The notes under the pieces are model-generated. The model was not told the origin of the DNA. It worked only from the letters and a program-made list of their open reading frames with translations, and ran no database searches. The position numbers and the translations under genes were made by a program. Source: an uncultured Eubacteriales bacterium (GTDB taxonomy: Bacteria; Bacillota; Clostridia; Oscillospirales; Acutalibacteraceae). From it: a DNA stretch of 64,000 bases. Positions 46,276-59,320 of this stretch are shown in pieces. The first letter of the stretch is position 1. Every line of letters begins with the position of its first letter. The stretch is from positions 25,512-89,511 of the forward strand of contig CASFEZ010000004.1 in assembly GCA_949293815.1 (NCBI GenBank), written 5' to 3'.

Positions 46276-46821
46276 ATGATCAGAAAGAGTTCAAAAAATG
46301 TTCTTGCTGTTCTTCTTGTGCTTTGCATCAGCGCGGTTGCCTTGTTTACCGCTTTTTCCGGTGATGTTCTTGTTCCGGAGGTAGCCGGTACAACGGAAGC
46401 CACTACAGAAGCACCAATTGAAGACACCACTGTCGCTGAAGAAACCACCGCTCCTGTTGAGCCTTCCGAAGAACCCTCTTCCGAAGAGCCTTCTTCCGAT
46501 GTCCCGGAGGATGAGAGCACCACGGAACAGCCCGGTACGGTTGTCGGTGTTGTTGGTGATGTAAACCAGGATGACCGCATCACTTCTGCGGATGCCCGTC
46601 TTGCTCTTCGTATCTGCGTACAGCTTGAAGAGCCCACCGAATTGCAGCTGGTTCTGGCGGATGCCAATGGCGACAAAGTGCTTCGCACTGCTGACGCGCG
46701 TCTGATCCTCAGACATGCTGTTCAGCTGTCCAATGAAGATGTTGTCAATGTTATCGGCAGCAATGTCAGACTGATTGAAGGCGAATCTGCCGGTGTCACT
46801 ATCGTTGTAGACGCTGACTGA
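46276..46821 (+). CDS. Short secreted or membrane-anchored dockerin protein
   Basis: A 181-residue exported protein. An N-terminal hydrophobic segment (about residues 8-28) serves as signal or anchor; there is no clear AxA cleavage site. A Thr/Glu/Ser/Pro-rich linker (about residues 40-92) follows, then a type-I-like dockerin: DVNQDDRITSADARLALR and DANGDKVLRTADARLILR, two calcium-binding loops each followed by an F-helix. A short tail closes the protein. No catalytic domain is present. ATG 46276 has GGAGG 7 bp ahead. Such a free dockerin would bind a cohesin, presumably the one at 56717-57376, and may be an adaptor, a competitor or a linker to the membrane. Confidence 0.85.
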   Translation: MIRKSSKNVLAVLLVLCISAVALFTAFSGDVLVPEVAGTTEATTEAPIEDTTVAEETTAPVEPSEEPSSEEPSSDVPEDESTTEQPGTVVGVVGDVNQDDRITSADARLALRICVQLEEPTELQLVLADANGDKVLRTADARLILRHAVQLSNEDVVNVIGSNVRLIEGESAGVTIVVDAD

Positions 46822-46866
46822 GATTTTCGCGCTCCTGTGCTGGCAGGATAATATCGTCTTGTAAAG

Positions 46867-46898
46867 CCGAGGTTTCTTTGATGAAGCCTCGGTTTTTT
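46867..46898 (+). terminator. Terminator after the short dockerin gene
   Basis: CCGAGG (46867-46872) pairs with CCTCGG (46887-46892), followed by TTTTTTG. Confidence 0.82.
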
Positions 46899-46936
46899 GT
46901 TTTGCCTGAATCTTTTGCATTATGTACAAAATTTGC

Positions 46937-46965
46937 TTGCATAGCTCTGTAAAATATGGTATTAT
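46937..46965 (+). promoter_or_regulatory. Promoter of the MFS-lipase-DUF4091 operon
   Basis: TTGCAT (46937-46942), 17-bp spacer, TATTAT (46960-46965), 36 bp before the start codon. Confidence 0.6.
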
Positions 46966-47000
46966 TCTCTTGTGATATTGTTTGTAAAAGAGGGATCGGT

Positions 47001-48395
47001 ATGCAGAAAAAAGAAAGAATCCGCAGTACACGCCTGGGCGGGCGGATACTGTGGAACCTGATTATGTTCGGGTTTATGGGACAGGTCGCCTGGAACGTGG
47101 AAAATATGTTCTTTAATACCTTTTTATTTAACTCGGTTTATGCCGATGCTTCCCAGCAGGCGGTGGACGGCTCCATCGGCGTGGTTAGCGCCATCAATAT
47201 TATGGTGGCTCTGTCGGCGGCCACGGCGGTCATTACCACCTTTATTATGGGTGCGCTCAGCGACCGGCTGCGCCGCAGAAAAATTTTCATCTCTGCCGGC
47301 TATCTGGTTTGGGGCGTTACGGTTATGGTTTTTGGTGTCATTACCAAAGGAAATACCGCAGCGCTGTTCCAGTTATCCGATCCGGTTGCCATTTTAACGG
47401 CAACCGTTACGATTGTCATTGTTATGGACTGTGTGATGACCTTTATGGGCTCTACCGCCAACGATTCCGCCTTTAACGCCTGGGTGACGGATGTTACCGA
47501 CAGCACCAACCGCGGAACGGTCGAAGGGATTCTGGCGATTATGCCTTTAGCTGCCATGGCTGTGGTTATGGGGCTGGGCGGCGCGATCAGCGCCATCGGC
47601 TATCAAACTTTCTTTATCGCGTTGGGCGTTTTTGTTTCGCTTTGCGGACTGATTGGCTTTTTCTCCTTAAAGGATTCGCAAACCGGTCAACGGGAGACCG
47701 GCGGCAGCTATTGGAAAGAGTTGGTTTATGGGTTCCGTCCCTCTGTCGTCAGGGAAAATGCGCGTCTGTACCTGACTCTGGGAGCGGCATGCCTGTTTAA
47801 TGTGGCGGTACAGGTGTTCTTCCCCTATCTTTTTATCTATTTACAGCACGGACTGGGACTGGATTTGAACGAACTGCTTGCCGGCCTGACCCCGGGGCTG
47901 ATTGCCGGCCTTGTGGCGGCAGTCGTGGTTGTTGTCGGGGCAATCATCGGCATGGGCAAGCTGGTGGATCGGTACGGCAAAAAGCATTTTATCAACCTCT
48001 CTGTCATTTTGTTTATTGTCGGTCTGCTTGCCACGGCTTTTGCGGACAGCCTGATGCAGTTCGTCGTTTGTTTTGTTCCGGCGCTGATTGGCTATGGGAT
48101 GCTGATGATTATGCTGAACGCGGCGGTGCGTGATTTTACGCCGGAGGGCAAGGTCGGTTTATTCCAGGGGGTGCGCATGATTTTTATTGTGCTGCTGCCA
48201 ATGATTATTGGTCCGACCATCGGCAATATATCCATCCGCTTTTTCGATTCGGTGCCTTATGTCAACGATTACGGCATTGTGACCGAATGCCCCGGCAGCT
48301 CAATGTTTGCGGCAGCTGCCGTGGTATCGCTGTTTATCTTCCTGCCGGTATACTTCCTGCAAAAGAAGGGTATTGATAAAAAAGAAAATTCTTAA
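47001..48395 (+). CDS. Major facilitator superfamily transporter
   Basis: A 464-residue, 12-helix secondary transporter. GALSDRLRRRKIF after helix 2 is the MFS motif A (G-x-L-x-D-R-x-x-R-R), and a related GKLVDRYGKKHF stands in the second half. The N-terminal region with WNVENMFFNTFLF resembles the sugar-handling or LacS-like MFS/GPH boundary group. It heads a unit with a secreted lipase-like protein and a GH123-like enzyme, so uptake of a degradation product is plausible. ATG 47001 has AGAGGGA upstream; the earlier in-frame start overlaps the promoter. Confidence 0.85.
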   Translation: MQKKERIRSTRLGGRILWNLIMFGFMGQVAWNVENMFFNTFLFNSVYADASQQAVDGSIGVVSAINIMVALSAATAVITTFIMGALSDRLRRRKIFISAGYLVWGVTVMVFGVITKGNTAALFQLSDPVAILTATVTIVIVMDCVMTFMGSTANDSAFNAWVTDVTDSTNRGTVEGILAIMPLAAMAVVMGLGGAISAIGYQTFFIALGVFVSLCGLIGFFSLKDSQTGQRETGGSYWKELVYGFRPSVVRENARLYLTLGAACLFNVAVQVFFPYLFIYLQHGLGLDLNELLAGLTPGLIAGLVAAVVVVVGAIIGMGKLVDRYGKKHFINLSVILFIVGLLATAFADSLMQFVVCFVPALIGYGMLMIMLNAAVRDFTPEGKVGLFQGVRMIFIVLLPMIIGPTIGNISIRFFDSVPYVNDYGIVTECPGSSMFAAAAVVSLFIFLPVYFLQKKGIDKKENS

Positions 48396-48415
48396 TCGTT
48401 TCAGGAGGGGTTTTT

Positions 48416-50359
48416 ATGAAACGGGTATTTGTTAAAAAAGTGTTGGCTCTGGTTGTTGCGTTATCGCTTGCGGTTGCCGTATTGCCGGTAGCTTCCGCCG
48501 AAGAGGCGTATTCCGATTATCCGGTGGTGCTGCTGCCGGGCTACAGTTCCTCGGGGCTGGAGCGGGTGTATGAGGACGGCTCCGCCAAGCAAGTTTGGGG
48601 CGTGAATACCGACGCCATTTTACAGGCGGTGCTTGCCCGTATTGCTGAACTGGCGTTGGGGCTGGGGCTGGCCGCCAGCGGCAGCGACCCGGCGTATCTG
48701 GCGAAAGTGGTGGGGGAGGAGTCCCGCGCCATTCTGGACGGCGTGCGCTGCAATCCCGACGGGAGCTCGGTTTATTCCGTGCGCCGGATTTACAGCGAAC
48801 CGGAGAACACCAACAACGCCTATTATCTGGCGCATCCGGATGAAATCGGCGGGATGTACGAGCGGGATATTATGGGCGACATCGGCGATTTGATTGGGGA
48901 TGCGCTGCTGTTCAACTTTAATACCGACTTTCGTATGGGCGCCATCGCCTGTGCTGAACAATTGCAGGAATATATTCTGAAAGTATTGGAGTACACCGGC
49001 GCCGAAAAGGTGAATCTGCTGGCCATCAGCCATGGCGGGCAGGTGGCAGGCACCTATTTAAGCCTGTACGGCACCCAGGGGCTGGTGAACAACGCGGTTC
49101 TGGTGGTACCCGCGTTGGGCGGCGCAGGGATTGCCTATGACTTTTTTAACGGAGATATTGACTTTGATGAGCTGACTCTGGTAAAATTTATTGAGCATGG
49201 CTTTATGAGTGAAACCGACTACCATTGGCTGGTGCGCGCTGAGGCGACCGGTTTTCTGGACGATGTGATTCGCGAGCTGGTGCCGTATTTGCTGGAATCG
49301 GTGCTGTATTGGGGCAGTCTGTGGGATTTTATGCCGCCCGAATACTATGAGCAGATGAAGGCGCGGTATTTGGATTCGGAAGAATCGGCGGCGCTGATTG
49401 CCGCGTCCGACCGGATGCACTACGAAATTATGCCCCATTATGCCGAAAATTTTGCCGCCTGTCAGACGGCGGGCGTGAAGATTCATATCATTGCCGGTAC
49501 GGATTCCCCGATTGTCACCGGTCTTCAGGAAAACTCGGATGCGATTATCACCACCCATTCTTCCACCGGCGCTCTCACCGCGCCCTATGGACTGCGCTTT
49601 GCGGATGGCTACCGGGGGCAGGATACCACCTGCCAAAACCCGGAGCATGTGCATATCTCGCCTGCCATGACGGTGGACGCCTCCACGGCGTATCTGCCGG
49701 AAAACACCTTTTTTATCGAAGGGCTTTTCCATGGCATGGTGTATTGGGATGACTATTCTTCGGATTTGTTGGAAATTCTATTGCTGACCGACCAAATTGC
49801 GGATGTACACACCGACCCGCGCTATTCTCAGTTCCACGCGACCACCAACGCCGAACAGGCGGTAACGGCATATTTTGACCAAAGCCCCGAGGGGCAGCTG
49901 GGCGCAGACGACCAATATCTGATTGTCAAAAATTTGTCGTCGACCCATTCGCTGACCCTGTTGAATATCAGCTGTTTTGGTCAGGAGCTGCTGATTCCCG
50001 CCGCCGGGAAGCAGTTGGCGCCCGGCGAGGCGCTGCGCCTGCCGGTGCAGGGGGAGCCCGAGGCGGTGTCCTACCGGAAAATGCAGCTCACCGTCCGTTA
50101 TTATACTTCTATTGCTGCCGGAACGCCCGTGGGCACACGCACGCTCAGCTTCCTTGTCATGAACGGAGAACCGGCGGTATATGACGGGCAAACGCCCTAT
50201 GCGCCGCTGATGTTGACGGAAAGCGCGTTCCCGCAAATTGCCGGAGATCGGGCAACGAGTGTGTTGGAAAAAATCGGCATTTTGGATTTTGTAGAAATGT
50301 TTTTCGATATCTTTTATGCAATATTGCAGAATATTCGGCTTTTGTTCAAGCTGGGATAA
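48416..50359 (+). CDS. Secreted lipase-like alpha/beta hydrolase
   Basis: A 647-residue extracellular protein. Signal peptide (residues 1-28, cleavage after ASA), then a lipase-like start YPVVLLPGYSSSGLERVYE, nucleophile elbow LLAISHGGQVAGTYL (AxSxG) and HVHISPAMTVDAST as a possible His region. The last 150 residues look like a beta-sandwich domain (LIVKNLSSTHSLTLLNISCF) and the extreme C-terminus is hydrophobic, perhaps a membrane tether. It is a paralogue of the cytosolic protein at 38538-40058. ATG 48416 has AGGAGGGG 8 bp ahead. Acyl-ester or glycolipid hydrolysis at the surface is inferred, not shown. Confidence 0.72.
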   Translation: MKRVFVKKVLALVVALSLAVAVLPVASAEEAYSDYPVVLLPGYSSSGLERVYEDGSAKQVWGVNTDAILQAVLARIAELALGLGLAASGSDPAYLAKVVGEESRAILDGVRCNPDGSSVYSVRRIYSEPENTNNAYYLAHPDEIGGMYERDIMGDIGDLIGDALLFNFNTDFRMGAIACAEQLQEYILKVLEYTGAEKVNLLAISHGGQVAGTYLSLYGTQGLVNNAVLVVPALGGAGIAYDFFNGDIDFDELTLVKFIEHGFMSETDYHWLVRAEATGFLDDVIRELVPYLLESVLYWGSLWDFMPPEYYEQMKARYLDSEESAALIAASDRMHYEIMPHYAENFAACQTAGVKIHIIAGTDSPIVTGLQENSDAIITTHSSTGALTAPYGLRFADGYRGQDTTCQNPEHVHISPAMTVDASTAYLPENTFFIEGLFHGMVYWDDYSSDLLEILLLTDQIADVHTDPRYSQFHATTNAEQAVTAYFDQSPEGQLGADDQYLIVKNLSSTHSLTLLNISCFGQELLIPAAGKQLAPGEALRLPVQGEPEAVSYRKMQLTVRYYTSIAAGTPVGTRTLSFLVMNGEPAVYDGQTPYAPLMLTESAFPQIAGDRATSVLEKIGILDFVEMFFDIFYAILQNIRLLFKLG

Positions 50360-50371
50360 GAGAGGTAGTAT

Positions 50372-52003
50372 ATGAAAGAATTGTATTTTGTCAATTCGCT
50401 GGAAAAAGTTTTTCCGGACGAAGCGCCGGGCGGACGGCTGGAAAAAATCTCGATGCTGAGAAACGAACGGTATTCTTTTCAGCTGGCCATTTTTTGCGAA
50501 AAAGAGGAAACACCGGTGACCATTACGCCGCCGGCCGAACTGGCGGATTGCCTGCATCTGTATACCGTCGGGCTGATTCCGGTACATGTGGATGCCAAGG
50601 AGAAGTGCGAAGATGATTTCCTGCTGCGGGAGGGCAAACCCGGGCTGTATCCCGATTTGCTGGTTCCGTGTGATACGCAGCTGACCCTGCGGGGTAAGGG
50701 CTGGCGCAGCATCTGGCTGGAAATCGAGCCGAAAGAGCCCCTTGCCGCCGGCAGGCGGGAATGCGCCTTTTCGGTTGTTTTGCCGGAAGGCAAGGCGACC
50801 GTTTCGCTGACGCTTGCGGTGGTCAACGCGCTTCTTCCGGAGCAGAGCTTGATTTGCACCCATTGGTTTTATTGCGATTGTCTCGCGGACCAGTACCAGA
50901 CCCCGGTTTTTTCGGAAGCGCATTGGCAGATTATTGAAAAGTATATCCGTTTCGCGGTCAAGCACGGCATCAATATGATTTTAACGCCTCTGTTTACTCC
51001 GCCGCTGGATACCGCCGTCGGCAAAGAGCGTCCCACGGTGCAGCTGGTAGGCGTGACCGCCAAAGATTATCAATATACCTTTGATTTTTCCCTTTTGGAT
51101 CGGTGGATCGATCTGTGTCTTTCCTGCGGGGTGCAGTATTTTGAAATGTCCCATCTGTTTACCCAGTGGGGCGCCAGGCATGCGCCCAAGATTATGGCCG
51201 AGACCGCCGATGGCGAAAAACGGCTGTTCGGATGGGAAACCAACGCCTCCGGCGCGGAGTATAAGCATTTTCTCAAGTGCTTTGCCGCTGCGCTGAATCC
51301 TTTTCTGGCACAGAAAGGCGTACAGGATCGCTGCTTCTTCCATGTTTCCGATGAGCCGGGCTTTAAGGATTTGCTCAGCTATAAAAAGGCGTCGAAAATC
51401 ATCGAGGAATGCTTTGGACAGTACCGCTGCATCGATGCGCTATCAGAATATGTCTTTTACCAAAACGGTTTGACCAAAACGCCGATTCCCAGCATTGGTG
51501 CCATTGATGCATTCAGGGGCAAGGTGCCCGAGCTGTGGGCGTATTATTGCGGCGGTCCGGCAAAAGAAAACTATATCAATCGCTTTTTGTATTACCCCTC
51601 AGTGCGCAACCGTGCGCTGGGCGCGGCGCTGTATGCCTATGACTGCAAAGGATTTTTGCACTGGGGCTATAATTTCTGGTATACCGTACTTTCGACTGCC
51701 CGTATCAATCCCTTTGAGGATACTGCCTCCGGCGGCGGGTTCCCGGCGGGCGACGGCTTTGTGGTATATCCCGGTGAAAACGGCGAGCCTCTGCCCTCCC
51801 TGCGCTTAAAAGTATTTTACGACAGCTTACAGGATGAGCGTGCGCTTCGGCTGTTGGAAGCTATTGCCGGCAGAGAGGCGGCGATGCAGGTTTTGCAGCA
51901 GGCGTATGACGGGTATTCCTTCCGCTCCTATCCAGCTACTGCCGAGGGCTTTTTATCCCTGCGCGAGCAAATCAACAACGCAATTGCCGACCGTTGTTCG
52001 TAA
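50372..52003 (+). CDS. DUF4091 / GH123-like glycoside hydrolase
   Basis: A 543-residue cytoplasmic protein with no signal peptide. The N-terminal part (to about residue 150) is beta-sandwich-like; the rest fits a barrel with FHVSDEPGFKDLL, where the Asp-Glu pair matches the catalytic DE of GH123 N-acetylgalactosaminidases, plus the downstream YYCGGPAKENYINRF and CKGFLHWGYNFWY segments of the DUF4091 domain. The substrate is unknown; hexosaminides are the best guess. It lies 12 bp after the secreted lipase-like gene (GAGAGG upstream), so import by the MFS transporter followed by intracellular cleavage is a reasonable model. Confidence 0.8.
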   Translation: MKELYFVNSLEKVFPDEAPGGRLEKISMLRNERYSFQLAIFCEKEETPVTITPPAELADCLHLYTVGLIPVHVDAKEKCEDDFLLREGKPGLYPDLLVPCDTQLTLRGKGWRSIWLEIEPKEPLAAGRRECAFSVVLPEGKATVSLTLAVVNALLPEQSLICTHWFYCDCLADQYQTPVFSEAHWQIIEKYIRFAVKHGINMILTPLFTPPLDTAVGKERPTVQLVGVTAKDYQYTFDFSLLDRWIDLCLSCGVQYFEMSHLFTQWGARHAPKIMAETADGEKRLFGWETNASGAEYKHFLKCFAAALNPFLAQKGVQDRCFFHVSDEPGFKDLLSYKKASKIIEECFGQYRCIDALSEYVFYQNGLTKTPIPSIGAIDAFRGKVPELWAYYCGGPAKENYINRFLYYPSVRNRALGAALYAYDCKGFLHWGYNFWYTVLSTARINPFEDTASGGGFPAGDGFVVYPGENGEPLPSLRLKVFYDSLQDERALRLLEAIAGREAAMQVLQQAYDGYSFRSYPATAEGFLSLREQINNAIADRCS

Positions 52004-52010
52004 ATTCGTC

Positions 52011-52039
52011 TTGCTTTTGCCCCGTTTCCATGGTATACT
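52011..52039 (+). promoter_or_regulatory. Promoter of dapF-dapL
   Basis: TTGCTT (52011-52016), 17-bp spacer, TATACT (52034-52039). Confidence 0.65.
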
Positions 52040-52096
52040 TAGTATGCTTATTCGTGGAAATGGGGCATTTTTTGTCCCAGAGGAAGGAACATGGCT

Positions 52097-52957
52097 ATGA
52101 AATTTACAAAAATGCACGGCGCCGGCAATGACTATGTGTATGTCAATTGCTTTGAAGAAACCATTCCCGACCGCGTAAAGACTGCGGCGGCGGTCAGCGA
52201 CCGCCACTTTGGCATCGGTGCGGACGGTCTGATTTGTCTGGATCCGTCTGAAATTGCCGACTGCAAGATGGATATGTACAACGCCGATGGTTCCCGCGGT
52301 AAAATGTGCGGCAACGGCGTTCGCTGTGTGGCAAAGCTGGCGTATGACAGCGGTATTGCCAAAAAAGATGAGATTTCGGTGGAAACCCTGAGTGGGATTA
52401 AGTATATTAAAATCATAAAAGATGAGGACGGCGAAGTGGTCGGCGCCCAGGTGGATATGGGCGAGCCGATTTTGAAGCCGGAGGAAATCCCTGCGCTGTT
52501 TGATGGCGAACAGGCGGTTTCCGCGCCGTTGGCTGTTGGGGATCAGGAATATTCTGTTACGCTGGTTTCCATGGGGAATCCCCATTGCGTGGTCTATGTA
52601 GACGATGTGAAAACGCTGGATATTGAAAAGATTGGTCCCCATTTTGAAAACCACGCCCGTTTCCCGGATCGTATCAACACCGAATTTGTCCGTGTGCTCA
52701 GCAGCCGGGAACTGGATATGCGCGTATGGGAGCGCGGCTCGGGCGAAACCTTGGCCTGCGGCACGGGCACCTGCGCTTGCGTGGTCGCCAGCATTTTGAA
52801 CGGCTATTGTGCGCCGGATACCGATATCAAGGTAAACCTCTTGGGCGGCACGCTGACCATCCGCTGGAGCACGATGGATAACCATGTTTATATGACCGGT
52901 CCGGCTGAAACGGTTTTTACCGGTGAATACGATTTGAAAAAACACGGCTTGCTGTAA
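52097..52957 (+). CDS. dapF: Diaminopimelate epimerase
   Basis: Converts LL- to meso-diaminopimelate for lysine and peptidoglycan. 286 residues. The start KFTKMHGAGNDYVYVN, the two catalytic cysteines in KMCGNGVRC and ACGTGTCA, and the fold's internal repeat are present. ATG 52097 gives a better ribosome-site distance than ATG 52091. It is followed by dapL, so the LL-diaminopimelate aminotransferase route is used and cell walls should contain meso-Dap. Confidence 0.95.
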   Translation: MKFTKMHGAGNDYVYVNCFEETIPDRVKTAAAVSDRHFGIGADGLICLDPSEIADCKMDMYNADGSRGKMCGNGVRCVAKLAYDSGIAKKDEISVETLSGIKYIKIIKDEDGEVVGAQVDMGEPILKPEEIPALFDGEQAVSAPLAVGDQEYSVTLVSMGNPHCVVYVDDVKTLDIEKIGPHFENHARFPDRINTEFVRVLSSRELDMRVWERGSGETLACGTGTCACVVASILNGYCAPDTDIKVNLLGGTLTIRWSTMDNHVYMTGPAETVFTGEYDLKKHGLL

Positions 52958-53002
52958 CTCTGAGCCGTAAAACCATTAAAATTTTGAGGAGTGCTGCAAA
53001 AA

Positions 53003-54217
53003 ATGAAAATCAATGAAAACTTTCTGAAAATTCAAAACAACTATTTGTTTTCTGATATAGCCAAAAAAGTCGCCGCCTATAAAGAGGCAAACCCTTCGGC
53101 GGACTTGATTCGCCTGGGGATCGGTGATGTGACCCGCCCGCTGCCCGAGGCGGTCACCGAGGCGATGAAAAAAGCGGTCGAGGAACAGGAAACCGTCGAG
53201 GGCTTCCGTGGGTATCCGCCCGAGTACGGCTATGACTTTTTAAGAAGTGCCATCAACCGGAACGACTATGCCGCCCGAGGCGTCAGCCTTTCGGATGATG
53301 AAATCTTTGTCAGTGACGGCGCAAAAAGCGACTGCGGCAATATCGGCGATATTTTTTCTGTTGATAATCTGGTTGCTGTCTGCGACCCGCTGTATCCGGT
53401 TTATGTGGATACTAATGTGATGGCCGATCGTTCCGGCGTTTTGCAAAACGGGCTGTGGAGCAATTTCCACTATATGCCCTGTACGGCGGAGAACGGTTTT
53501 TTGCCGCAGATTCCGGACAAAAAGGTGGATATCATCTATCTTTGTTTCCCCAATAACCCGACGGGCATGTCCATTACCAAAGAAGAGCTTGCCAAATGGG
53601 TTGCTTATGCCAATGCAAACGACAGCCTGATTTTGTACGACGCGGCGTATGAGGCCTATATTACCAGCGAGGATGTACCTCACAGCATTTTTGAAATCGA
53701 GGGCGCAAAAAGCTGCGCCATTGAGTTTAAGAGCTTTTCCAAAACGGCGGGCTTTACCGGTGCGCGGTGCGCTTATACCGTTGTGCCCCACGAATTAAAG
53801 CGCGGCGGGGTAGAGCTGAACGCCCTTTGGGGCAGACGGCAGGCAACCAAATTCAACGGTGTTTCCTATATCACCCAGCGCGGCGCGGAAGCGGTGTATT
53901 CCGAACAAGGCAAACAGCAGGTGCGCGCCAATATTGCCTATTACCAAAACAATGCCAAAGTCATTGCCGATGGGCTGCGCAAAGCCGGTTTTACCGTATA
54001 CGGTGGTGTGGATTCCCCCTATATCTGGCTGCGCACGCCGGATGATTTGACCTCCTGGGAATTTTTTGATTTACTTCTGCACAAGGTGCAGGTCGTGGGC
54101 ACCCCCGGTTCCGGTTTCGGTCCCTCCGGCGAAGGGTATTTCCGCCTGACTTCCTTCGGCGACAGCGAAAAAACCAGGGAAGCGGTTGCGCGTATTGTCA
54201 GCGTTTTTAGCGATTGA
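53003..54217 (+). CDS. dapL: LL-diaminopimelate aminotransferase
   Basis: PLP enzyme that makes LL-diaminopimelate directly from tetrahydrodipicolinate, skipping the acylated steps. 404 residues. KINENFLKIQNNYLFSDIAK, LGIGDVTRPLPE, FPNNPTGMSITKEEL, and KSFSKTAGFTGARCAY (PLP lysine) are hallmarks of DapL. ATG 53003 is chosen over GTG 52991 because the family starts there; GAGGAGT is upstream. It follows dapF by 45 bp. Confidence 0.94.
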   Translation: MKINENFLKIQNNYLFSDIAKKVAAYKEANPSADLIRLGIGDVTRPLPEAVTEAMKKAVEEQETVEGFRGYPPEYGYDFLRSAINRNDYAARGVSLSDDEIFVSDGAKSDCGNIGDIFSVDNLVAVCDPLYPVYVDTNVMADRSGVLQNGLWSNFHYMPCTAENGFLPQIPDKKVDIIYLCFPNNPTGMSITKEELAKWVAYANANDSLILYDAAYEAYITSEDVPHSIFEIEGAKSCAIEFKSFSKTAGFTGARCAYTVVPHELKRGGVELNALWGRRQATKFNGVSYITQRGAEAVYSEQGKQQVRANIAYYQNNAKVIADGLRKAGFTVYGGVDSPYIWLRTPDDLTSWEFFDLLLHKVQVVGTPGSGFGPSGEGYFRLTSFGDSEKTREAVARIVSVFSD

Positions 54218-54283
54218 TTCGGAAATCTTACTAAAAATAGCAGGATTTGCACAGACAAATCTTTATATAATTTGAAAAAGTCA

Positions 54284-54312
54284 TTGACACGGCATGCGTT
54301 TCGATGTATAAT
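54284..54312 (+). promoter_or_regulatory. Promoter of the leucine-rich-repeat dockerin gene
   Basis: TTGACA (54284-54289), 17-bp spacer, TATAAT (54307-54312): full consensus, 80 bp before the start. Confidence 0.85.
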
Positions 54313-54391
54313 TCTATTGTATATAATGCAGTTGGATTCTGCACTTGTTTATTTTCTCTATTCCAATTAAAAAACGGAAGGAAGTTTTGAG

Positions 54392-56365
54392 ATGAGGAAC
54401 AAAAAAAGTTTTGTCCTAAGGCTTGTGGCAATCCTGATGGTTTGCTGCATGTCAGTGGGCATATTGCCGATTGTATCTTCTGCGGCGGATACAACCTTGA
54501 CGCAGGTTGATCCTGCAACGGCTGTCGGCGAGTATGTCATCCCGGACGGCACGGTCGCCATTGCTGACAATGCGTTCAGCGGCTGCACGGAGCTGACCTC
54601 GGTTGTTATTCCGGCCAGTGTAAAGACCATCGGTTCTTATGCGTTCAGCGGCTGTACGGCGCTGGCAAGCGTGAAATTTAACGGCACGCTGGACTCGGTC
54701 GGTCTGCTTGCTTTCCAGGATACGGCATGGTACAAAAACTATCCTACGGATTTTGTATATGCCTCTTCTCCCAGCGGGTTTAATGTGCTGGTTGGCTATA
54801 AGGGCAGCGATGAAGAAGTAACCGTTCCCGCTTCTACCACAATGATTGCCGATGGTGCGTTTTATAACAATAAAACCATTACTTCCGTAACCATTCCGCT
54901 TCGTACCACCGAAATCGGCGATTATGCGTTTTACGGCTGCGAAAAGCTGGAAGACATCACCATCAAAGGCGCGCTGAATGAATGCGGCTTTATGGCCTTT
55001 GAGGGTACTGCCTGGCTGAACAACTTTGCGGGCGAGTTCGTTATTTCCGGCACCATGCTGATTAAATATAACGGCAATAAAGATGTTGTTTATATTCCCA
55101 ATACGGTAACCAAAATTGCCAGCTATGCGTTCTATGACTGCAAAGATGTCACCACGGTTCGTGTGCCCGCGTCCGTTACAGATATCGGCACCAACGCATT
55201 CTATTTGTACAATGACGGCGGCAACGATAAATACGCCGAAATTTACTGCTGGGCAGATACCTATGCGGAAACCTATGCCAAAGAAAATGCCTTGTCTATT
55301 GCTTCCTATATGTATTATCCCGGCGATGTCAACGGTGACGGCAATGTGTTTACCAGCGATGCGCGTGTTGCGCTGCGGTACGCAGCCAAGCTGGAACGCG
55401 ATTTGACCGACGCCCAGTTTATTGCCGCCGACATCGGCTGTGACGGCATCATCAATTCCTCCGATGCGCGCCTGATTCTTCGTCTGGCTACCGATCTTGC
55501 TGAGTATACGCCCGAAGACCTGCTCTTTAAGCCCAATACGGACTTTGAAATCCTGATGGCTTATACGGAGAGCGTTCGTCTGGCTTATATTAAAGAGGCA
55601 GGCTATAATTTGCAGGAATATCAAAGCATTGACGAAGTCAAGGTCGGTCCTTCCATTATCCGCACCACGCTGAACAATCCGTTTAAGACCGATTTGACCA
55701 GCGAAAAGAAATCGGAAGTGCAAACCCTATCGGCTGATACCGTAGAAGCGCTTGAAAGACTGTATCTTTGCGATTTGACCAATAACTCCATTATTAAAGA
55801 AGCCGAATGCGTTTTGACGGAGAGCAACAAATATTACATCACCATCGTATTGAATGACGAAGTGGATGTAGAAGAAACCGAATCACTGACTTCCTGCATG
55901 TTCCCCGTGGTTGCCCGTGAGGATATGAACCGTCTGTTGGAAGAAGAAGAGTGGATTTGGTACAACGCAGCAAATACTGACTTTAACTACAAAATTACCT
56001 ATCAGAATTGCACGCTGAACGCGATTGTGGATGTGTTTACAGGCAATATCGAAAATCTGGAAATGCAGATGGGTTATCGCTTTGATGTCTGGGGACAGAT
56101 TCGCCTGACCAAGATTCGTCACAGCGACGACAAGAACAATCCGGTTGGCTATGCCACCAGAACCGATACTGTTAAATACACCGATTTTGACTACACGGTA
56201 AAAGAGTTTACCACCACAACAACCGAGCCCACTACGATTGTTGAGGGGGAAGACCCTGAGAACCCTGTAACCGTTCCCTCTACCACAACAAATAACGATG
56301 CGGGCAATTTCCTTGCCGGTATCGGCGATTCCCTTGCCGGTCTGTTCGGCGGACTGTTTGGTTAA
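54392..56365 (+). CDS. Secreted BspA-like leucine-rich-repeat protein with dockerin
   Basis: A 657-residue exported protein. Signal peptide about residues 1-31 (cleavage near SSA). Residues about 48-300 are BspA/LRR_5-type repeats, seen as SYAFSGCTAL, DYAFYGCEKL and SYAFYDCKDV with IP...V..I..YAF spacing; these usually bind host or other proteins. A dockerin follows (about 310-370): DVNGDGNVFTSDARVALR and DIGCDGIINSSDARLILR. The remaining 290 residues I do not recognise; they end in a Thr-rich stretch and a Gly-Leu-rich tail. ATG 54392 has GAAGGAAG upstream. The dockerin would dock it onto the cohesin protein encoded next. Confidence 0.87.
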   Translation: MRNKKSFVLRLVAILMVCCMSVGILPIVSSAADTTLTQVDPATAVGEYVIPDGTVAIADNAFSGCTELTSVVIPASVKTIGSYAFSGCTALASVKFNGTLDSVGLLAFQDTAWYKNYPTDFVYASSPSGFNVLVGYKGSDEEVTVPASTTMIADGAFYNNKTITSVTIPLRTTEIGDYAFYGCEKLEDITIKGALNECGFMAFEGTAWLNNFAGEFVISGTMLIKYNGNKDVVYIPNTVTKIASYAFYDCKDVTTVRVPASVTDIGTNAFYLYNDGGNDKYAEIYCWADTYAETYAKENALSIASYMYYPGDVNGDGNVFTSDARVALRYAAKLERDLTDAQFIAADIGCDGIINSSDARLILRLATDLAEYTPEDLLFKPNTDFEILMAYTESVRLAYIKEAGYNLQEYQSIDEVKVGPSIIRTTLNNPFKTDLTSEKKSEVQTLSADTVEALERLYLCDLTNNSIIKEAECVLTESNKYYITIVLNDEVDVEETESLTSCMFPVVAREDMNRLLEEEEWIWYNAANTDFNYKITYQNCTLNAIVDVFTGNIENLEMQMGYRFDVWGQIRLTKIRHSDDKNNPVGYATRTDTVKYTDFDYTVKEFTTTTTEPTTIVEGEDPENPVTVPSTTTNNDAGNFLAGIGDSLAGLFGGLFG

Positions 56366-56545
56366 TCTCTGTTTTCCTGCGGCAACCGCAGCTTGTGTTT
56401 GCCGCAGGATGTAAAAAACTTTCTGGTATCGACATTTGTAAACTGAAGAAAATACAATCAGGCACGGAACACTGCATTGTAAAAAATCAACAATATTAGT
56501 ATGCGATTTTTGTTGTATTTTATGCGTGAGAGAATGAAAAAGCGT

Positions 56546-56574
56546 TTGACATTTGTGAACCGTTATGCTACAAT
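56546..56574 (+). promoter_or_regulatory. Promoter of the cohesin gene
   Basis: TTGACA (56546-56551), 17-bp spacer, TACAAT (56569-56574), with a leader of about 135 nt. The preceding gap 56366-56545 holds a 10-bp hairpin (56379-56411) with no T-run. Confidence 0.75.
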
Positions 56575-56652
56575 AAACCGTGTTAAGATTCATTTTTCTT
56601 GGCTTATGTCTGTTGCACGGACAGACTGCGATGCTAAATTTTATCGATATTG

Positions 56653-56689
56653 TATATAAATGAATCAGCACCGCATGATTCTTTATATA
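56653..56689 (+). other. Stem-loop in the cohesin mRNA leader
   Basis: TATATAAA-T-GAATCA (56653-56667) pairs with TGATTC-TTTATATA (56676-56689), one bulge. It ends 14 bp before the ribosome site and could control translation or mRNA stability. Confidence 0.6.
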
Positions 56690-56716
56690 AAAAATTTTTC
56701 AAAGGAAGGTTCTAAA

Positions 56717-57376
56717 ATGAAACTTGCAAAAAAAGCCCTTGCTGTTGTAGTAGCAATCGCTCTCATCAGCACCCTTGCAATCAGCGCCTTCGCTGCTGAT
56801 GCTGCGCTCGTTTTGACTCCCAGCACTTCGACCGCTCAGATTGGTGACACCGTTACGGTTGACCTGTCCCTGAGCAATGCTGCCGGTCTGGAAAATCTTG
56901 GTCTGATTGTTTCTTTCGACCAGGATAAACTTGAGCTCACCAATGTTGTTTCCGGCAACGACAACGCGATTGCTGAAAAGAACTCCGCTGGTGATGTTAG
57001 TGTTGGTTATATGAACATGAACTCCAACAAAGCTGATACTCTTGCTCTCGCCACCATGACTTTCAAAGTTCTTGCTGAAGGTTCTGCCAATATCACTGCT
57101 GAGCTGATCGTAACTGACGGCAAAGCTGATATCAATGGTGTTACCGTTTCCAGCAACAGCACCACGATCACCCTGACTGGTACTGAAAAAACGACTGCAG
57201 CTCCCACCGAGCCCACTGTAGCTCCCTCTGCTGACGACTCCACCACTCCTTCTGGCGATGACACCACCAAAGCTGAAGACGAAATTCCTCAGACCGGTGA
57301 TGCTGGCATCGCTGTAGCCGCTGGTCTTGTTGTTCTTGCCGGTGCTGCTTTCGTAGCTTCCAAGAAAAGAAAATAA
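56717..57376 (+). CDS. Sortase-anchored single-cohesin surface protein
   Basis: A 219-residue mini-scaffoldin-like protein. Signal peptide to about residue 27 (cleavage after AFA). Residues about 30-165 form one cohesin domain: AQIGDTVTVDLSLSNAAGL, LGLIVSFDQDKLELTNVV and ADTLALATMTFKVLAEGS match the successive cohesin strands. A Thr/Ser/Pro-rich spacer (AAPTEPTVAPSADDSTTPSG) and the anchor IPQTGD, a hydrophobic helix and KKRK tail follow, that is an LPxTG-type sortase signal. ATG 56717 has AAGGAAGG 7 bp ahead. Codon usage (many GCT, GTT, GGT) differs from neighbours and suggests high expression. It lies between two dockerin genes, which are its likely partners. Confidence 0.9.
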   Translation: MKLAKKALAVVVAIALISTLAISAFAADAALVLTPSTSTAQIGDTVTVDLSLSNAAGLENLGLIVSFDQDKLELTNVVSGNDNAIAEKNSAGDVSVGYMNMNSNKADTLALATMTFKVLAEGSANITAELIVTDGKADINGVTVSSNSTTITLTGTEKTTAAPTEPTVAPSADDSTTPSGDDTTKAEDEIPQTGDAGIAVAAGLVVLAGAAFVASKKRK

Positions 57377-57396
57377 GAACCAGTAAATGGTTAACA

Positions 57397-57433
57397 AAAG
57401 AAAGGGATCTCCAGTAGATCCCTTTCTTTGTTG
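57397..57433 (+). terminator. Terminator after the cohesin gene
   Basis: Perfect 14-bp stem (57397-57410 with 57416-57429), loop CCAGT, then GTTGTT. Confidence 0.82.
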
Positions 57434-57538
57434 TTATCTGCGTTTTTGACCGGTAGGGAAGACCGCGAATTATAGCCTTGCAACAAGGCAGATTCTTAAT
57501 CACTTCGTTTAGTGCAGGAGCGGCAGATTGAAAGAATA

Positions 57539-58282
57539 CTAATCCAGTTCAACCGCTTGCCGCAAGATGTCGCGGGCGTCCGATGAGGTTACCTTGCCGT
57601 CGCCGTTCACATCGGCGGCTTTTTTTGCGTCCTCCGACAACTCTGTAAGTCCGGTTGCTGCTCGCAGCGCCTCCCGGGCGTCTGCCGTTGTCACTTTGCC
57701 ATCGCCGTTGACATCACCGCTAATAGCAGATTCCTGATACCTAACTCCAACGATACCGCAAAGGCTTTTTGCTATAGCATTGGCAATTGCGTCAAAACGG
57801 GTATCCAGAGCCTCGTTATCCTTATCCGAGGTGATAAATCCCATTTCCAGCAGGGCAGATGCACAATCGGTGTCGCGGTTGACTGCAAAATTATCATAAG
57901 ACGGCGCGCCTTTTTTTACGCCCCGATTTGCCAAACCATCTGACTGGCATACTGTTGCGAGAATTTGCGCCGCCTTGCTGACAGTCGCATCGGTAGCGGT
58001 GCGAATCACCCAGATTTCATTCCCCGTGGCAGTGCCGTCAAAGGAGTTGCGGTGAATGGACAGATAATAGTCGGAACCCCATTGATTTGATTCATTGGTG
58101 CGTGTTCGAAGCAGCGGATTGCTGTCATCCGTTCGGGCGTATTTAACTTCAACATTTTGCGCCGCTAATAATTTTCCAACAGCCAGCGCCATGCGCAGCG
58201 TGTCATCCTTTTCTCTGCGACTGCCAAAAACCGCACCGCTGTCGCTGCCTCCATGACCCGCGTCTAAAAAAATCTTAGCCAT
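57539..58282 (-). CDS. N-acetylmuramoyl-L-alanine amidase with C-terminal dockerin
   Basis: A 247-residue zinc amidase of the Amidase_3 family that cleaves the bond between muramic acid and the peptide stem. IFLDAGHGGSDSGAVFG (zinc His), the Glu in RREKDDTLR, YLSIHRNSF (second His) and ALLEMGFIT (catalytic Glu) are all present, residues 1-180. The last 65 residues are a dockerin: DVNGDGKVTTADAREALR and DVNGDGKVTSSDARDILR. No signal peptide is visible. ATG 58282 has GGAGGTG 6 bp ahead; ATG 58291 would add three residues. A wall-cutting enzyme docked on a surface cohesin would trim or remodel peptidoglycan; how it leaves the cell is unclear. Confidence 0.88.
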   Translation of the reverse strand: MAKIFLDAGHGGSDSGAVFGSRREKDDTLRMALAVGKLLAAQNVEVKYARTDDSNPLLRTRTNESNQWGSDYYLSIHRNSFDGTATGNEIWVIRTATDATVSKAAQILATVCQSDGLANRGVKKGAPSYDNFAVNRDTDCASALLEMGFITSDKDNEALDTRFDAIANAIAKSLCGIVGVRYQESAISGDVNGDGKVTTADAREALRAATGLTELSEDAKKAADVNGDGKVTSSDARDILRQAVELD

Positions 58283-58516: not shown

Positions 58517-59206
58517 TTACAAAGGGATTAGCAAGTTCTTCGCTCCGTGCACAAGGCAGAATAGCCCCAAAATGCAGACAGCCGCCGGTACAATATACCG
58601 GGAAACCTTTTGCAGCACCCGTTCCAGCCGCTGAATCAGACCGGTGCCCTGCACTTTGTTGTAAACAAAATAGAGCAGAATCAGTGGAAAGGCGTAGACA
58701 AAGGTATACAGACAAACAAAGGCGACAACCAGCGGCGCGGCAAGCTGATATTCCGCCAAAATCGCCAGAAAACCAAAGTAGGGCATGGCGCTGGTCAGCT
58801 CCACCATACAAAACGCGGCGCCGAGCACAAACAGGGAAACCGGCGAGAGACTTGCCGGTGTTTTTGGCGTTTGAGCCGCATCAGCTGTTATCTTTTGGCG
58901 GATTGTTTTGCGCAGCAGCCAAAGACCGATCCCCCCAATCATGACGCCCGCAGCCGTTTCCGCGCCATAAAAGGGGAGGGGATATTGCGTCGAGCCTTGT
59001 TCCAATAATCGAGAAATCCAGGCGGCAATCCCGTAATAAATGGCAAGCCCCATCAGAATATTCGCAAGGCTGATTCCCAAAATAAAAAACCAGGTATGCC
59101 GCTTCTTTTTCACCATAGCCTGCAGCACCATCTGCTGGGCAATGGCAGAGGGATTCAGGCTGTCAAAAAAACTGGTGGTCAGCGTGGTCGCAAGCAGTGT
59201 CAACAT
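58517..59206 (-). CDS. GAP/CcdA-like six-helix membrane transporter
   Basis: A 229-residue polytopic protein with about six helices and an alpha-beta-type N-terminus (LTTSFFDSLNPSAIAQQM, the NP-containing first helix typical of LysE/CcdA/GAP families). It closely resembles the GAP (SfLAP, PF11139) or cytochrome-c-biogenesis CcdA-type groups; the exact substrate is unknown. ATG 59206 is chosen: AGGAGGT lies 6 bp ahead. The frame stays open up to ATG 59311, which is about 3 bp from the predicted transcription start, so an N-extended, leaderless form is conceivable. The extension coincides with an attenuator-like hairpin. Confidence 0.68.
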   Translation of the reverse strand: MLTLLATTLTTSFFDSLNPSAIAQQMVLQAMVKKKRHTWFFILGISLANILMGLAIYYGIAAWISRLLEQGSTQYPLPFYGAETAAGVMIGGIGLWLLRKTIRQKITADAAQTPKTPASLSPVSLFVLGAAFCMVELTSAMPYFGFLAILAEYQLAAPLVVAFVCLYTFVYAFPLILLYFVYNKVQGTGLIQRLERVLQKVSRYIVPAAVCILGLFCLVHGAKNLLIPL

Positions 59207-59220
59207 AAAAATACCTCCTG

Positions 59221-59283
59221 AAAATAAAAAAAGAAGCGCTCTGCTGACACCACTAAGACCTACGGTGTCAGCAAAACGCTTCT
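59221..59283 (-). terminator. Attenuator-like hairpin in the leader of the GAP-family gene
   Basis: On the minus strand AGAAGCG...CGCTTCT encloses TGCTGACACC...GGTGTCAGCA, a long stem followed by TTTTTTTATTTT, between promoter and ribosome site. Premature termination and ligand control are possible. Confidence 0.7.
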
Positions 59284-59320
59284 CCATCCGGTGACGGATT
59301 TCCTTTTTCATTTCCTGCTT

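Follow-up and report, generated by a model that had tools for sequence, protein, structure and literature searches.

The window analysed in this study, a stretch of 64,000 nucleotides from an uncultured member of the Acutalibacteraceae, encodes a sortase-anchored protein with a single cohesin domain (56717-57376, forward strand) and, next to it, an amidase ending in a dockerin (57539-58282, reverse strand). We favour, with somewhat more confidence than doubt, an interpretation in which a genus-wide cohesin-dockerin docking network has one of its sockets in the window, phages of these bacteria equip their lysins with the dockerin to bind the wall, and the window amidase is itself phage-derived. 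The unexpected element is the dockerin on lysins; the docking system itself has precedents. The original prediction, made from this region alone, had described a minimal, one-slot surface dock with non-cellulolytic cargo. The non-cellulolytic surface docking held up, the single slot gave way to a network, and the 12-kb view shows only a small part of a system spread over the whole genome.

Cohesin sockets and dockerin cargo in the genome and the genus

The protein encoded at 56717-57376 has its cohesin domain at about 56798-57181 and a sorting signal (IPQTGD) with a membrane tail at about 57263-57376. Its Pfam scores exceed the curated cut-offs for Cohesin (PF00963; 34.4 bits against 24.1) and for Gram_pos_anchor (22.0 bits against 20), the sorting signal scores 32.8 against a cut-off of 23.5 with the NPXTG model of NCBIfam, and a profile built from eight orthologous cohesin domains (two of its rows come from the same contig of one relative) recovered from the PDB the solved cohesins of Clostridium, Acetivibrio and C. 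perfringens NagJ (1g1k, 2vn5 and NagJ 2jh2). With an AlphaFold2 model of the product (mean predicted local distance difference test score, pLDDT, of 77.8, from an input alignment of two sequences), cohesin entries made up 48 of the 50 Foldseek hits listed, the best at an E-value of 5.6e-9. The domain is confirmed as a cohesin by profile and by modelled fold, and the original prediction, which had staked itself on a match to cohesin profiles, stands on this point; its four features (the cohesin with its anchor and three Dockerin_1 domains) all score over the curated Pfam cut-offs. The protein has the features of an anchoring scaffoldin of the nonSLH type, since it combines a signal peptide (by eye), a cohesin and an LPXTG-like signal with a sortase encoded in the genome, and full-length orthologues occur in all seven genomes of the genus, the present one included.

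Among the four anchored cohesins of the genome, the sortase-anchored one has the lowest domain conservation in 18 of 21 genome pairs, which overlap, with a median identity between genomes of 33% against 55, 46 and 48% for the other three. This divergence, together with the two remaining Foldseek hits, which are non-cohesin adhesin or pilin domains (9ifr and 8gsy), would suit a cohesin-like adhesin domain of the immunoglobulin (Ig) type that binds no dockerin. We regard that explanation as improbable, given that true cohesins lead the Pfam, PDB profile and fold matches and that a gene for a leucine-rich repeat (LRR) protein with a dockerin adjoins the cohesin gene in four of the seven genomes.

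The whole-genome search that the original prediction had called for revealed further cohesins, two sortases and 38 dockerin open reading frames (ORFs) in a draft genome (G000) of 2.46 Mb in 69 contigs, estimated as 96% complete. Three tandem single-cohesin genes lie at G000:C1:143726-146260 (L038:7727-10261), each product having a signal peptide, as judged by eye, and a C-terminal segment of strong hydrophobicity. Two of them pass the Pfam cut-off; the first falls below it at 18 bits and reaches 143 bits with a genus profile built partly from triplet sequences. Cohesin-like domains were also found in dockerin-bearing proteins at C5:151362 (E 2.5e-6) and C10:15251 (E 6.4e-5), and a third candidate of this type at C37:13359 is doubtful (E 0.06 with the genus profile). 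The genome therefore has four anchored cohesin proteins and two or three proteins with both cohesin and dockerin, which is incompatible with a minimal system. Scans with Pfam and the genus profile, which divergent cohesins of a draft genome can escape, revealed no frame with more than one cohesin; a weak match on contig C43 (Pfam E 0.05) was dropped, as the genus profile gave it no support. The two sortase genes adjoin each other on contig C47, next but one to a gene for a SpoIID-dockerin protein, and one of them passes the class B sortase model (170.6 against a cut-off of 153.75), the other scoring below it (140.7). As a side observation, the triplet proteins have mostly acidic tails, and GH4-, NanE- and ROK-kinase-like genes (names assigned by eye) lie just downstream.

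The dockerin search of the genome gave 46 places at E-values up to 1, two of which are second loops of frames already counted, so that 44 frames were read. Two of the 38 ORFs over the cut-off reach it only with neighbouring loops counted, and C47 and C16_36182, also among the 38, score 0.2-0.5 bits below it in whole-protein scans. Among their partner domains (Pfam, E up to 0.001), LRR_5 is the most frequent (nine ORFs), followed by peptidoglycan-acting domains in six (three Amidase_3, one GH25, one M23 and one SpoIID). The singletons are beta-lactamase-like, PPIase, metallophosphatase, GH5, PQQ, Big_3/SH3 and DUF6273 domains and an LCAT-like domain slightly below its cut-off, and in 15 ORFs the dockerin is the sole Pfam domain, two of these having the cohesin-like domains of C10 and, doubtfully, C37. 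Thus, the expectation of adhesin-like and peptidoglycan-acting rather than cellulolytic cargo holds for the whole genome. A classical cellulosome was rejected for this genome, as the scans gave no frame with two cohesin matches that could serve as a scaffoldin, only one GH5 among the 38 dockerin ORFs and no GH9 in any of the seven genus genomes; GH48 likewise gave no matches in the seven, with its control equally silent. The only glycoside hydrolase domains that Pfam shows among the 38 are GH25 and GH5, so that the Pfam scans gave no sign of a mucinolysome with its dockerins on mucin-degrading families.

When a simple hydrophobicity rule is applied, 37 of the 44 dockerin frames look secreted. 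The other seven comprise the window amidase and its paralogue, both with clear starts, and frames at contig edges, fragments or frames with uncertain starts. Of 79 loop repeats, drawn from 43 frames, 78 have S/T at position 10, 63 have A/S at position 11 and 78 have R at position 18; the uniformity at positions 12-14 and 17 is no evidence, because the search pattern itself constrained them. Positions 10, 11, 17 and 18 are those singled out for dockerins in the available text of PMC4081043, and the simplest reading is that all dockerin cargo of this genome would fall into one recognition class. Judging from these motifs and domains, dozens of surface and wall-remodelling proteins appear to be clipped onto cohesin sockets at the cell surface. 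The class B sortase would join the single-cohesin protein to the wall, and secreted LRR adhesins, peptidoglycan enzymes, a foldase and proteins without a known function would plug into cohesins through their calcium loops, with the three membrane-anchored cohesins as further sockets and the proteins having both domains as possible adaptors. A search for an unknown domain shared by the dockerin proteins was abandoned, since BLAST showed only LRR or related repeats, amidases and a few other pairs, and hhalign a single clear pair (c5a/c5b). A separate dockerin cluster at G000:C5:150-155 kb (L093) contains a secreted Amidase_3, a protein with cohesin and dockerin and two related unknowns, and G005:C83 (L138) looks similar by eye.

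The membrane-cohesin triplet is also present in all seven genus genomes, and the C-terminal segment is strongly hydrophobic in all 21 triplet proteins. When 200 genomes of the family were searched with a profile of the first triplet cohesin, 3 matched, and these are the only listed members of the genus in that sample; the triplet therefore looks genus-restricted, the four other genus genomes lying outside the 200. Dockerin matches number 34-112 per genus genome (E up to 0.01; for one genome, 150 of 171 candidates were scored), and some relatives have larger cohesin-bearing frames, several also with dockerins. Within 60 genomes, the present one included, 40 have both cohesins and dockerins, 3 only cohesins, 6 only dockerins and 11 neither (33, 3, 6 and 11 when the genus is left out), an association whose Fisher p of 9e-6 is merely indicative because the genomes are not independent.

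The amidase-dockerin and its prophage paralogue

The gene at 57539-58282 encodes a leaderless, endolysin-type Amidase_3 protein (128 bits in Pfam) with a C-terminal dockerin at about 57542-57727 (Dockerin_1, 47.1 bits). It starts at 58282, where the protein begins MAKIFLDAGHGG directly behind a strong ribosome-binding site (GGAGGTG), and the hydrophobicity rule detects no signal peptide. In the PHROGs database the best matches are endolysins (E 6.9e-45, and 3.3e-49 for the paralogue), and the nearest relatives among annotated phage records are endolysins or amidases with 35-39% identity (top rows in a list of 124 records). Thus, the window amidase is a hydrolase of an endolysin family without a signal peptide. 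The holin and phage genes expected alongside an endolysin were not found next to it, in that the window has no similarity to the holin, the small ORF or two tail proteins of the prophage described below (best E 0.08).

A paralogue with 70% identity to the window amidase occurs at G000:C6:61005-61742, in a lysis cassette: baseplate and tail genes are followed by the lysin, a small ORF and a holin (9.8e-24), and the contig also carries sheath, tail tube and capsid genes further upstream. It is this position in a prophage lysis cassette that led us to propose that phage lysins may have the dockerin as a wall-binding domain. Six full-length amidase-dockerin relatives were found in four genomes of the genus. 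Three adjoin the sortase-anchored cohesin gene, and the other three are the paralogue on G000:C6, a copy on G001:C33, where the contig begins 197 bases upstream of the lysin and the small ORF follows again, together with a holin that shares 84% identity with that of the prophage, and a copy behind tail genes on G005:C79. In three other genus genomes the neighbours of the cohesin differ (stretches of 9-14 kb, two being whole short contigs). A conserved neighbourhood was found for the cohesin and the LRR-dockerin gene in four of seven genomes and for the cohesin and the amidase in three of seven.

The amidase had been proposed as ordinary displayed cargo of the dock. Its peptidoglycan-acting nature stands; the ordinary display does not, because the protein lacks a signal peptide and belongs with the endolysins of phages in type. 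Display could still be rescued if the amidase were cargo exported by an unrecognised route, in a non-cellulolytic display system like those of Ruminococcus or Lachnoclostridium MSJ-17, and if phages had copied a host autolysin. Synteny of the amidase with the cohesin in three of seven genomes would fit, as would the binding of a dockerin-bearing NlpC/P60 protein by ScaE of Ruminococcus flavefaciens, reported as unpublished results, and the dockerin-bearing cell-wall hydrolases cited in the available text of the review PMC6403190. We nevertheless consider this unlikely, given the leaderless amidase among dockerin frames of which 37 of 44 look secreted, its endolysin matches, the lysis or tail contexts of three copies in the genus, and the occurrence of dockerin loops on GH25, Amidase_2 and CHAP lysins of other contigs.

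Leaderless cellular amidases exist, such as those of the CwlC type, and the orphan amidase might be a cytoplasmic enzyme that serves programmed self-lysis or the lysis of a mother cell and docks on cohesins afterwards. The missing leader, the lack of similarity in the window to the prophage holin, small ORF or two tail proteins and the retention of the amidase beside the cohesin in three species agree with such a role, which would also be compatible with a phage origin; the NCBIfam CwlD model argues against it, with a match far below its cut-off (62 against 221 bits). We rate this explanation lower still than the preceding one. Most likely, to judge from sequence comparison, the window amidase came from a phage as a lysin and has been retained beside the gene of its would-be receptor.

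Dockerin loops on phage lysins

IMG/VR was searched with the amidase, its alignment, two single queries and two dockerin alignments, and the resulting numbers of dockerin lysins are lower bounds. At least 20 contigs encode lysin-like proteins with dockerin loops, and 20 distinct contigs were chosen by eye from the dockerin-bearing frames for closer reading. Nineteen of these lysins have a Pfam hydrolase domain (L295 has none): GH25 in 11, one with M15 and one with CHAP, Amidase_2 in three, Amidase_3 in two, CHAP alone in two and M23 in one. Dockerin_1 scores over its cut-off in 13 and under it in six, all single-loop, and leaves one unmatched (L272, a single loop by eye); by loop pattern, 12 have two loops. 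None of the 20 has a signal-peptide-like start by the hydrophobicity rule. Phage-type neighbours were found in six of the eight contigs examined, namely a holin and an integrase (L171), tail and holin-like genes (L261), an integrase (L262), a holin and a virion protein (L267), a holin (L270) and a weak virion-protein match (L266).

The wall-binding domains of phage endolysins, which include LysM, SH3, CW_7 and PG_binding, are usually C-terminal. The dockerin lysins share with phage endolysins the N-terminal hydrolase, the absence of a signal peptide, a holin neighbour where one was shown and a C-terminal targeting part; they differ in that this part is, or includes, a dockerin. The last loop begins within 30 residues of the C terminus in 15 of the 20 chosen lysins. 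Moreover, the dockerin of the lysin in the genome's own prophage keeps the host pattern (S/T at position 10, DAR, and LR at positions 17-18) and is up to 60% identical to dockerins of other proteins of the same genome, and four phage or prophage lysin dockerins have best bacterial matches of 57-66% identity among the genus loci compared.

Several results weigh against our interpretation. The full-length amidase-dockerin occurs in only four of the seven genomes and is thus no core part, and the protein tree, which has two long branches, favours neither one origin nor several for the three cohesin-side amidases. Eight of the 20 chosen lysins have a single loop only, and six have other targeting modules (LysM in two, SPOR in two, CW_7 and PG_binding_1), so that the dockerin need not be the sole wall-binding part. 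The neighbours of L263 and L272, one ORF each, gave no PHROG match, and the IMG/VR lysin contigs come without host assignment. Among the matches listed, lysins made up 8 of 13 loci in an IMG/VR scan with dockerins only and 12 of 49 in a broader one, the rest of the latter including many tail-type or unrelated EF-loop proteins, which speaks against an exclusive link. Paired loops occur on only 2 of the 80 Amidase_3 homologues kept out of 131. Finally, the family member G007 has 19 dockerin matches and no Pfam cohesin matches, and other genomes too are rich in dockerins with few or no cohesin matches. For G007, divergent cohesins and dockerins without sockets are both options.

The single-loop lysins, the additional targeting modules and the paired EF loops on phage tail proteins for which no cohesin partner is apparent would also be explained if lysin loops were calcium-binding stabilisers or generic EF-hand modules rather than cohesin binders. 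We doubt this alternative about as much as ordinary display, since the prophage lysin dockerin retains the host pattern and the loops mostly occupy the usual place of a wall-binding domain. If the lysin dockerins do bind cohesins, a phage lysin would pass the holin, dock on a wall- or membrane-linked host cohesin and cut the peptidoglycan nearby, and the membrane cohesins could come first for a lysin arriving from inside. Wall-binding domains in general have been proposed to keep lysins on debris, and holding the lysin there may be an alternative role of the dockerin. A wider proposal, which we regard as evenly balanced, is that phages of cohesin-displaying Clostridia repeatedly add a dockerin to their endolysins with the host socket as receptor, that the host keeps a lysin gene beside the socket, and that this contest is what makes the sortase-anchored cohesin diverge fast.

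In INPHARED, four dockerin queries showed no isolated phage with a dockerin lysin; the matches were six unverified faecal scaffolds, four of which were inspected by eye and have neighbours that look bacterial, and one gene of a Ruminococcus phage. The latter (L276:538-1626, PV036439.1, phage NatCom_28274) encodes a dockerin-like protein annotated as hypothetical (tblastn E 4e-3) with a signal-peptide-like start, and may represent phage-encoded surface cargo for the host. Other observations from IMG/VR are the lysins ending in a single dockerin-like loop, or half dockerins (L266, L272, L283, L286, L288, L301 and L323; two after SPOR), and small ORFs of about 110-150 amino acids with two EF loops that are not lysins (L265, L268, L273 and L324).

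Other window genes, known systems and meaning

The two further dockerin proteins of the window are encoded on the forward strand, and in all three the sequence has the paired 12-residue loops of a type I dockerin, in which an F-helix follows each loop. The gene at 54392-56365 encodes a BspA-type LRR protein (LRR_5, 135 bits, 1.3e-39) with a central dockerin (Dockerin_1, 28.4 bits) and a C-terminal domain whose structure model (pLDDT 36) gave no usable fold. Its orthologues (62-81% identity) adjoin the cohesin gene in three relatives, hence the pair in four of the seven genomes, the present one included. The protein at 46276-46821 is a secreted, free dockerin, with a signal-peptide-like N terminus, a Thr/Glu/Pro-rich linker, the paired loops and a short tail; it scores 23.1 bits with Dockerin_1 (PF00404), only 0.2 bits above the cut-off of 22.9, and has a syntenic orthologue with 51% identity in one relative (G001). 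The regulatory role once suggested for it found no support, and two other short dockerin proteins without any other Pfam domain occur in the genome (C16_30873 and C5_145133). In addition, the window encodes at 50372-52003 a GH123-family catalytic protein without a dockerin or visible signal peptide, placed between a lipase-like gene and dapF in a synteny kept in two relatives, and at 58517-59311 (reverse strand), upstream of the amidase-dockerin, an SfLAP-like membrane protein below the Pfam cut-off. An SfLAP-like gene also adjoins the amidase-dockerin in G004 (L128:7729-8397), and no match was found in the G001 stretch.

Several known systems precede the docking system described here, for which the label undescribed, used in the original prediction, was too strong. 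The available parts of the prior work already describe sortase anchors with a single cohesin, dockerin proteins with LRR or peptidase domains, wall hydrolases that carry dockerins and, in a bacterium presumed to be non-cellulolytic, single cohesins on transmembrane helices (PMC2930009, PMC4081043, PMC9112005, PMC3573020, PMC6403190, PMC6700490, PMC4022735, PMC3558961, PMC5967307, PMC5817068, PMC11557425, PMC12997984). ScaE of R. flavefaciens is likewise a single-cohesin, LPXTG-type anchoring scaffoldin attached by sortase, and according to the same material that species also has LRR dockerin proteins, peptidase dockerin proteins and the NlpC/P60 protein mentioned above; it differs in having a rich scaffoldin set and about half of its dockerins on carbohydrate-active enzymes, whereas no multi-cohesin scaffoldin and a single dockerin GH5 were found here. 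Lachnoclostridium sp. MSJ-17 is similar in its few cohesins and presumably non-cellulolytic lifestyle, with two cohesins on C-terminal transmembrane helices, and 39 dockerin proteins; it differs in having a two-cohesin scaffoldin, and the available text of that account describes neither a sortase anchor nor a tandem triplet nor a connection to phages (PMC11557425). The Limousia mucinolysome also has an LPxTG cohesin protein as surface anchor (cSca5) and dockerins with predicted broad binding, and departs from our system in its multi-cohesin scaffoldins and many mucin-degrading dockerin glycoside hydrolases, neither of which was found here (PMC12997984, as far as its available text goes). The proposed lyticome also consists of peptidoglycan hydrolases with dockerins, and the cellulosome of R. 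champanellensis is cited as having lysozyme activity; the available text presents these enzymes as cellular and makes no mention of phage origin, missing signal peptides or holin neighbours (PMC6403190). A dockerin-like gene, its role not given in the text available, was noted in a Vibrio phage (PMC3558961). No description of a dockerin as an endolysin wall-binding domain was found in the literature on dockerins with endolysins, prophages, holins or phages, as far as its available text goes, with subscription journals mostly outside the scope.

The known role of cohesin-dockerin pairs is to assemble polysaccharide-degrading complexes, and in this genus they seem to provide a general means of attaching adhesins and wall enzymes to the surface, with sockets on both membrane and wall. 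If lysin dockerins do bind host cohesins, a bacterial assembly module would double as a phage receptor module, and the wall target of these endolysins would be a protein and not a glycan. This would also offer a simple test for why cohesins diverge. Besides, the dockerin-bearing lysozymes and amidases regarded as cellular in cellulosome genomes would deserve a second look, since some of them may be prophage lysins.

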